DNA of 64,000 nucleotides from Rhea pennata (lineage: Eukaryota > Chordata > Aves > Rheiformes > Rheidae). The stretch covers positions 11,255,501 through 11,319,500 of the forward strand of contig NC_084674.1 of assembly GCF_028389875.1 (NCBI RefSeq). Reading direction: 5' to 3'. The translations under genes were made by a program, and so were the position numbers. The notes under the pieces were generated by a model. That model was not told the origin of the DNA. It did no database searches and saw nothing but the letters and a program-made list of their open reading frames with translations. Shown in pieces: positions 38,259 to 41,200 of this stretch (its first letter is position 1; each line of letters starts with the position of its first letter).

Positions 38259-41200
38259 TCAAGTCACTTGTCTGTAATATGACAGCATATCATCTAAACT
38301 TTGGTAAAGTGGTTCTTGATTTTCAGTGCTGCTGCTGCAGGTCTGTGCTGAAGGTGGTACGTCTTGAGTGTTGCAGCTGTATGCCTGCATTGGTGGCAGC
38401 ACATCTTGAGCACCGTAACCGTAGCCATAAGCCTGCATTGAGGGCAGCATGCCCTGAGCGCCATAGCAGTAGGCTTGCATTGGTGGCAGCATGCCCTGAG
38501 CGCCGTAGCCGTAAGCCTGCATTGGCACCGCGTGAGCTCCGTAGCCATAAGCCTGCATTGACGGCAGCACATCTTGAGCTCCATAGCCGTAAGCCTGCAT
38601 TGAGGGCGGCATGTCTTGAGCATCGCAGATGTAAGCCTGCGCTGACAGCAGCTCGTCTTCAGTGTCACAGCTATCAGCCTCCTCCGATGGTGACGCATCT
38701 TGAGTGTCACTGCCGCAGGCCTCTACTGATGCAGACACGTCTTGAGTGTCATTGCTGTAAGCCTGGGTTGATGGTGGCACGTCTTCAGTGCTGCTCTCAT
38801 TGGCCTGCTGTGATGGCAGCTGTTGGTTTTGTGCTGTCTCTTGTTCCAGTTTTTCAGGGGAGCCTTCCGGACTGTTCGAATTCTGGCTGTAATTATCAGC
38901 TTTCTTTTGTCCCATGAAGTAATCAGAAGGTGGTGCAAATTCTGGATCTCGCTCATCTCTGAGTTCTGCTTGTTTCTTTGACCATTGTCCAAAAATCAGT
39001 TCTGTTAAAAACAAGGAAATGGTAGTTTGAACACAGACTTCAGCATCTAAAGATCAGTCAGAACGGAGGTCACAAGAGAATTAGCAAGCGGGGAAGATGC
39101 AGCTGCTTAAAGCCATTTGAAGTTTTGAAGTTACTTTCCCATCTAGGGCTACTTGTTAGCTAAGCTGATAGTCCATTTTCTCTATTCAACAGAAACCAAA
39201 CCACTGAGCATTAAAGATAACCATCATCCTCTAAATAACCCATCTTAGTCACTTTAAGATCCTTTAGCAACCTGGTCACTTGTTACAAAAAACTGCTAAT
39301 CAGAGCACTAAGAGCATAGCTACTAGAACATGGAGATTAGGAGATTTTCTCAGTATTACAATCGGTTGTGCTTTTAGTGGGCATATGGAAAAACCAGTAA
39401 CTTCTTCATTTCTGCAGAGATGTAGGTATTCTAGTTGCTATGGCATGATAAATATAATTCTGAAATACTGCAATGGGATGACAACTCAAAATCACCATAC
39501 TTTCAAAGATGTCCCCAAACTTTACTTTCTGAACGGAATGTTTTCACTATTCAGTTCTTCCAAGATTTCTGTAAGAACTGAAGTACAAACTTTCAATAGA
39601 GTAGAGCTACACATTCATCTAATGTAGCAAAACAGAACCCCAGCCAGGGAAGGGAGTTCTTGTATTGCTCTGGTAAAAATATTAAATAGAAAAGAGGAAG
39701 TCATTAAGGGATTATGGAGTCCTGTTTATCCCTTCTCATAATAGCTGAGATGCTTACATTAAGTTTAGGTAATGAACTCTGGGGTTTTACTTCACAGTTT
39801 AGAGCAAGCTACCCTCCATTTCTGGACGATAACTTCTGTTGTGTAGTACATTGCTGCCTGCGTATCCAAGTCAGACATTAGGATTCCATAGGGATAGGAA
39901 AAAGGCTTAGGCAGGATAAAGGCTTAACAGAGACCACTTCGTCCCTTCCACTCAAATATGTTCATTAACTGAACACAAAGACAAGGCTGTTAAAATTAGA
40001 AAGCATTTGAAAATACCTAAGTTTCCTACAGAAGAGGAACACTGCTTCTATAGCAGTCCATAGAAGGTGGAATCTGTGCTTGCTTTTCCCTAGAAGTCAG
40101 GCATCAGACTACAGGAAGAACGTGTATGAGCTTAGATTAATGGTGAAAGTGAGTTAATGAATTTGGAAAGGATCTAGAGGAGACCAATCACTTGCTATCC
40201 CACTTGGCAGCATCTTTCTTGTCAGAGCATCAACACAGATACTTGTGCAAGCAGACAAGAAATGGAGCCTGAGAAAACTGGAGGCTTAACTCCACTAATG
40301 ACAAAAAACCATTTTCTTTGAAGAGCATTTCTGGACAAACACTTTAAAATGAACGGTCAAATTATGTAATTCTTATTCCCTCTAGTAGTGCTGAGGTGAA
40401 GTAGTACTAAGCCTTCTGATTTAGAGAGTGATTTTCTTTGATATAAATGAAAAGAATTCCACTATCAACTTTCCCGTGTATCTAGTAACTTGGTAAAAAC
40501 AGGGTGTAGTATATCTAAATGGGCTAGCAGTGAAATACATTTCAGCTGTGAGGTAAACACAACAATATGGCTCCTCATCTCACTGAGTTTTTCAGTTTAA
40601 AAAATATCTGCAACAAGTCCCAGCAATACTTTATCTTCTGTTCTCTTGCATGCATTTAATTTCATGATATATGTGACCCTCCTGACAATCATGCAAAAAC
40701 CTCCCTTCTCTATATACCAACCACCTCTTTGCTTCTCCTCCATGTTCTTCCCTGTAATCCATTTATTCCAGAAAACCTCCTAGATACATTGACACTGGCA
40801 CTGAAGTGGTCACTGCTTGCATCACTTTTTATTATCCTCCTGTACCTGTTTCACTGTGCTTCCTTCTGCCATCAAGTAGCACAAACTACAGTAATATATT
40901 AAGAACAGATCAGACTGAAAGATAGTAAATTTCATGAAATATGAAATTTGTCATTCTGTCAAGCTCTCTGGATCATCCAGAAATGCAATAACTTATAGAA
41001 GATAAAATTAGGGGACATTATGGCACTATGGCATGCATTGTCAATCACTGCACTTGGCACTAGATAGTCATCAATTAAAAAGGAGAAAGTGTTTCATTAC
41101 TTTTCAGACTTATCACACTTTGTCATCAAAAAGGGATGAAGACAGCTGTGTACACACTACTTCCAAACAAAGTTTCTGAATATGCATTTCCTTACCTTTG

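Follow-up and report, generated by a model that had tools for sequence, protein, structure and literature searches.

Gene structure of CCDC174 in the window

Why does the last coding exon of a conserved splicing factor gene carry a long tandem repeat, and does the repeat belong to the protein? This question is raised by a locus of Rhea pennata, for which we analysed a window of 64,000 nucleotides (contig NC_084674.1, positions 11,255,501 to 11,319,500). The gene concerned is CCDC174, the counterpart of fission yeast Ctr1; its product partners NRDE2 at weak 5' splice sites and U1 snRNA. The exons were placed by searching the window with what we take to be the human CCDC174 sequence, which fits the published length of 467 residues and five of five published variant positions, and matched pieces of all 11 coding exons.

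The predicted gene, spliced in silico, has 11 coding exons, 10 GT-AG introns and a closed frame of 617 codons that ends at SYYRQVT and a stop codon. The coding region lies on the minus strand (38259..50456) and comprises exon 1 (50456-50415), exon 2 (49327-49223), exon 3 (48274-48174), exon 4 (47319-47261), exon 5 (46190-46010), exon 6 (44025-43930), exon 7 (42731-42595), exon 8 (42214-42120), exon 9 (41876-41729), exon 10 (41342-41196) and the last coding exon, exon 11 (39001-38259, stop codon included). Independently of the human sequence, the predicted protein contains the Pfam domains CCDC174_GRSR (PF25449; 64.2 bits against a cut-off of 26) and DUF4078 (PF13300; 91.8 bits against a cut-off of 25). 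It shares with known CCDC174 the 11 coding exons, as in human, both domains above their curated cut-offs and conserved ends, including the C-terminal tip. The tip belongs to a tail of 22 residues plus the stop (38259..38327, minus strand), whose penultimate Val aligns with human V466, and a candidate polyadenylation signal (AATAAA, 38136..38141, minus strand) begins 118 nt past the final base of the stop codon.

When the CCDC174 body was compared with the 1.27-Gb assembly of 180 contigs, all 10 matches at E values up to 0.001 were in exons of this gene, and the candidates scored in the assembly showed no retrocopy. The DNA of the repeat array had one match there, in a search that skips very common words. 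With exon 11 alone, no Pfam family scored above its cut-off; neither exon 11 nor the whole protein matched a solved structure at E values up to 10 (0 matches each), six exact peptide patterns from exon 11 found no match in the viral contigs scanned, and Rfam and tRNA scans gave 0 hits.

Units and reading frame of the array

The array (38328..38789, minus strand) corresponds to residues 442-595 of the predicted protein. Read from 38789 to 38328, it consists of exactly 11 head-to-tail in-frame units that fill the whole interval: nine of 42 bp, one of 36 bp (38502-38537) and one of 48 bp (38412-38459), with a total of 154 residues. In both odd-length units, which are among units 5-10, the length change is a multiple of three. 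The preliminary description was accurate in these coordinates, in the frame and in the count of 11 units with one of 12 and one of 16 residues. Tandem Repeats Finder reported a period of 42 as well as the multi-unit periods 78 and 120, and the period-42 self-match of the array was 0.62, whereas 500 dinucleotide shuffles, scored at all periods between 30 and 59, gave no value above 0.351. The array has the properties of a coding tandem repeat, namely units head to tail, lengths in multiples of three, placement in frame and periodicity above chance. It sits between a conserved 26-residue body segment and the conserved C-terminal tip, and 30 bp separate its end from the LDDM motif of the tail. 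The earlier statement that the frame and the flanking conserved motifs are kept also agrees with our model, in which the whole gene is intact, splices in silico and retains its Pfam domains.

The 14 residues directly upstream of the array (38790..38831, minus strand) are probably a decayed and diverged twelfth unit. Their match to the unit consensus is 50%, a value reached or exceeded at a fraction of 0.0004 of the random positions in a background of just under 20,000 sampled plus-strand window positions, which was not matched for coding sequence. A second upstream stretch, in the conserved body segment, matches the consensus at 52% and was treated as a chance match, being out of register with the array; since this match exceeds that of 38790-38831, our claim for a twelfth unit is tempered.

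Across the array, two more minus-strand frames are open over most of its length and one plus-strand frame over all of it, so that the open frame is by itself weak evidence for coding. The plus-strand frame of 229 codons antisense to the array (38228-38917) has a codon pattern that is not suggestive of coding and is probably open simply because the 42-bp unit contains no stop codon. Taking the units, the frame and the gene structure together, we regard the array as a genuine coding minisatellite, in frame in the conserved splicing factor CCDC174 and presumably translated.

Divergence and age of the units

The preliminary description had presented the array as a recent expansion with nearly identical central units. 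This near-identity does not exist in the DNA, and the central units are close only as protein. For units 5-10 (38370..38621, minus strand), with a gap placed in unit 7 and the 6 additional bases of unit 9 omitted, pairwise DNA identities are 69-85%. In the protein, any two of units 5, 6 and 9 are distinguished by 2 of 14 residues, the two additional residues of unit 9 again being disregarded. With 6 of 42 bases different even in the most similar pairs, the amplification did not happen very recently, and a recent expansion is unsupported.

In a tree of the 11 units, units 5-10 grouped together (bootstrap 78), as did units 5-9 (bootstrap 80), and the remaining nodes were weak (47-62). The outer units 1-4 (38622..38789) and the last unit, unit 11 (38328..38369), all on the minus strand, are more diverged; unit 11 is of the outer type and paired with unit 2 in the tree with low support (54). 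Units 1, 2 and 11 share 71% identity with one another, and compared with the central units, unit 1 is at 61-73% and units 2 and 11 are at 52-64%. These identities fit, weakly, an older array that was amplified from inside. CpG sites are frequent in the array, and hypermutable CpGs could inflate dS and its apparent age alike. As judged from a single genome, the array appears to be older than had been thought.

Third positions are richer in GC in the array (0.56) than elsewhere in exon 11 (about 0.35) or in the remaining exons (0.40). The higher value might result from biased repair at a recombining repeat.

Selection among the units

A comparison of synonymous with nonsynonymous change between units had been proposed as a check, and we carried it out. 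With the units divided into central and outer groups, a division chosen after seeing the data, units 5-10 gave pS 0.521, pN 0.140 and dN/dS 0.17, and units 1-4 and 11 gave pS 0.576, pN 0.269 and dN/dS 0.30; for all 11 units dN/dS was 0.36. The pN/pS ratio of units 5-10 was 0.27 in the true frame compared with 0.44-1.53 in the other five frames, and the ratio was lowest in the CCDC174 frame for the outer units likewise. On this ground an antisense or other-frame gene at the array was judged unlikely.

We then have to ask whether these ratios could arise without selection on the amino acids. It is possible, although we find it less convincing than the reading that we prefer below, that the array is a near-neutral coding minisatellite that is simply tolerated, its linker being unconstrained, in-frame slippage harmless and the third-position bias a product of CpG hypermutability. 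A survey of fixed coding-exon indels, which places them mostly in disordered regions, with the frame kept and half of them derived from tandem repeats (PMC12457776), is in line with this possibility, and so is the considerable divergence of the outer units. Neutral simulations were made with stop codons barred, in sets of 400 runs, and the models included 10- and 20-fold CpG rates. The four mutation models produced a ratio as low as that of units 5-10 in 1, 0, 2 and 6 runs, and the two models with related tips did so in 2 and 8. That the 10- and 20-fold CpG rates so rarely led to this ratio (2 and 6 runs; 2 and 8 where the tips were related) argues against near-neutrality. For the outer units, the observed value was reached in 10 and 9 of 300 runs under two models.

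Counts of codon positions bear on both readings. In units 5-10, a conservative count assigned 14 of 24 minimum changes to third positions (P = 0.010), and by columns 9 of 14 third positions were variable compared with 8 of 28 others (P = 0.030). After exclusion of any column involving CpG in any unit, 2 of 7 third-position columns in units 5-10 were variable compared with 4 of 22 others (P = 0.455), which speaks for near-neutrality; under the same filter the third-position excess in units 5, 6, 8 and 9 was not significant (P = 0.068). By columns, the outer units had no third-position excess (P = 0.46), and pooling all 11 units gave none either (P = 0.46; counted by changes, P = 0.098). The proposed check thus yielded a third-position bias in units 5-10 that is gone without the CpG columns. 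The ratios are modest evidence of constraint, and selection probably keeps the amino acids, or a YGYG-type motif, of the central units, although the signal is lost without the CpG-involved columns. The wording of the preliminary description, that the array is tolerated or selected, remains apt.

Comparison with human CCDC174 and a possible tether

The distance from PPSDYF to LDDM is 206 residues in the predicted protein, about 3.5 times the 58 residues in what we take to be the human CCDC174 sequence. The 154-residue array before the tip is the difference from known CCDC174, the 58-residue linker of this human sequence being without an array. About 150 residues had been described as gained relative to human; the length difference of 150 stands, whereas the gain, its age and clade and the linker contrast depend on this one human sequence. 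Human CCDC174 has 467 residues and 11 exons (PMC13270137), against 617 residues predicted here. Two variants of the human protein are reported to bind CDC5L less well, V466M at the penultimate residue (P = 0.0145) and V233I in the body (P = 0.0035) (PMC13270137). Mouse CCDC174 binds U1 snRNA and 5' splice sites with NRDE2, and in mouse cells NRDE2 recruits it to nuclear speckles (PMC10351895).

The explanation that we favour, with about even confidence, is that the array is a coding minisatellite of some age, situated in a flexible linker, and lengthens the tether between the conserved body and the CDC5L-binding tip. A 42-bp unit would have been amplified by repeated unequal exchange or slippage, probably from inside, such that units 1-4 and 11 would be the older, more diverged and acidic units and units 5-10 a later type rich in Tyr, Gly, Gln and Met. 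The most likely effect would be a longer flexible tether from the body (the GRSR domain, DUF4078 and the 26-residue segment) to the C-terminal tip. With less weight, we suppose that selection may hold the sequence of the central units and that the regular spacing of their tyrosines may provide further weak, multivalent interactions in nuclear speckles. A stronger version, in which CCDC174 went in a bird lineage from compact helper at 5' splice sites to long-tethered and multivalent protein, with Tyr units selected, a longer reach of the tip from the U1-bound body, concentration in speckles and a shifted choice of weak 5' splice sites, strikes us as unlikely.

The array resembles other coding minisatellites in disordered regions in its in-frame 42-bp unit, its multiple-of-three indels, its diverged edges and its more homogeneous centre. 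It differs from them in its location, directly ahead of the short functional tip of a splicing factor that is conserved, and in having a centre that may be under amino-acid selection. The kind of repeat is already known, but its place and possible tether effect merit a comparative look; the titles and abstract openings listed for CCDC174 and for coding repeats, birds included, make no mention of a CCDC174 repeat array. A natural version whose linker is about 3.5 times as long as that of the human sequence offers a direct way to ask whether the length of the linker and the spacing of its tyrosines influence splice-site choice. Loss or variants of CCDC174 in mouse and human have been associated with disturbed oocyte splicing or linked to infertility (PMC13270137).

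Composition and predicted structure

The 154 residues of the array include 14 Tyr, 17 Gln, 13 Gly, 9 Met, 6 Cys and 19 Asp or Glu residues. The outer units had been described as acidic, and 16 of the acidic residues indeed lie in the 70 residues of units 1-4 and 11, compared with 3 in the 84 residues of units 5-10. The tyrosines have the opposite distribution, with 12 of the 14 in units 5-10, which are 14% Tyr.

FUS, EWSR1, TAF15 and the GY-rich exons of hnRNPs have Tyr-rich low-complexity domains. The array is like these in being Tyr/Gly/Gln-rich, with regular Tyr spacing, in an RNA-binding nuclear protein. It differs from these domains in its 14-residue period, its complete lack of Arg, Lys, Phe and Trp, its acidic flanks and its many Met, Ala and Pro residues. 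The central units could be imagined as a condensate module of the FUS/EWS kind, that is, as selected stickers for phase separation or amyloid-like assembly in speckles, for which one might cite the Tyr content of units 5-10, YxY at 6 sites, QAY at 8 sites and the presence of mouse CCDC174 in speckles (PMC10351895). We hold this to be very improbable: the outer units, 1-4 and 11, are acidic and contain just 2 of the 14 Tyr, the array has zero Lys, Arg, Phe or Trp, and [GS]Y[GS] motifs, which by the FUS/EWS-type criterion should occur throughout, number 5 in 154 residues and occur in units 5, 6, 7 and 9 only. The likeness to tyrosine-rich domains drawn in the preliminary description is a compositional and partial one, and a part in condensates, which that description itself called speculative, is still a speculation.

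By the hydropathy-charge rule for disorder, the whole array and the outer units are classed as disordered and the central units are not. AlphaFold2 without an alignment gave no confident fold (mean pLDDT 46.3 for the best model, 30.5-38.4 for the other four); each of units 5-10 received a single 7-residue strand, with pLDDT, taken over blocks of 10, of about 51-62, and the C-terminal tip was modelled as a helix (pLDDT 60-63). These strands and the hydropathy-charge result would suit a folded repeat (a beta-solenoid or stacked strands) in place of a flexible linker. An out-of-frame translation of the array DNA, used as a control, was also given regular structure, as helices, at a mean pLDDT of 47.4, and AlphaFold2 is reported to draw unrealistic beta-solenoids for perfect repeats (PMC11795689). 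Because the control frame gives helices at similar confidence and the program has this bias, the predicted strands carry little weight, and at such pLDDT values a folded repeat would be a most improbable model of the central units.

Assembly and splicing of the array

Splice-site profiles were built from the 10 introns of this gene only, in which the real sites scored between -2.2 and 9.4 (donors) and between 1.1 and 13.4 (acceptors). Some sites in exon 11 score as high as the weakest of these: the array contains a donor-like site (2.9, at 38413, the best GT site in the array) and an acceptor-like site (2.9, at 38552), and the tail contains an acceptor-like site (8.3, at 38271); the weakest real donors score -2.2 and 2.9. 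The best of the 20 GT sites in exon 11 scores 3.7, however, and 8 of 10 real donors score at least 3.7 (leave-one-out). Although arrays can be mis-assembled and several frames are open here, the notion that the array is an assembly artefact or a normally spliced-out segment is hardly credible, given that the codon-position pattern tracks the CCDC174 frame, that the array DNA matches one place in the assembly and that the best unit pair is 85% identical, at which ordinary reads should be placeable uniquely.

Other features of the window

About 2.2 kb beyond the CCDC174 stop, the minus strand carries at about 35930-36085 an element with a tRNA-like head and what is presumably a CR1-type 3' end (gggttggactagatgatcc...ttctatga). 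The element looks like the tRNA-headed SINEs with a CR1 tail described from passerines (PMC5729268). The TguSINE1 primer from that paper had no match with up to 3 mismatches, and Rfam found no tRNA match at 35930-36085. A CR1-tail pattern had 3 matches over the window, which is not above chance (shuffle mean 1.02; 12 of 100 shuffles reach 3). A minus-strand frame at 16703-17626 looks like CCDC51; it has no family match above cut-off. An exon piece of TMA7 lies on the plus strand at 20797-21147 (Pfam PF09072, 29.7 bits against a cut-off of 27). Two further tandem repeats were observed: a GC-rich 62-bp repeat at 27322-27481 (2.6 copies at 96%), in a stretch open in several frames, and a pentanucleotide repeat of GAAAA at 16080-16242 (32 copies, 97% match).
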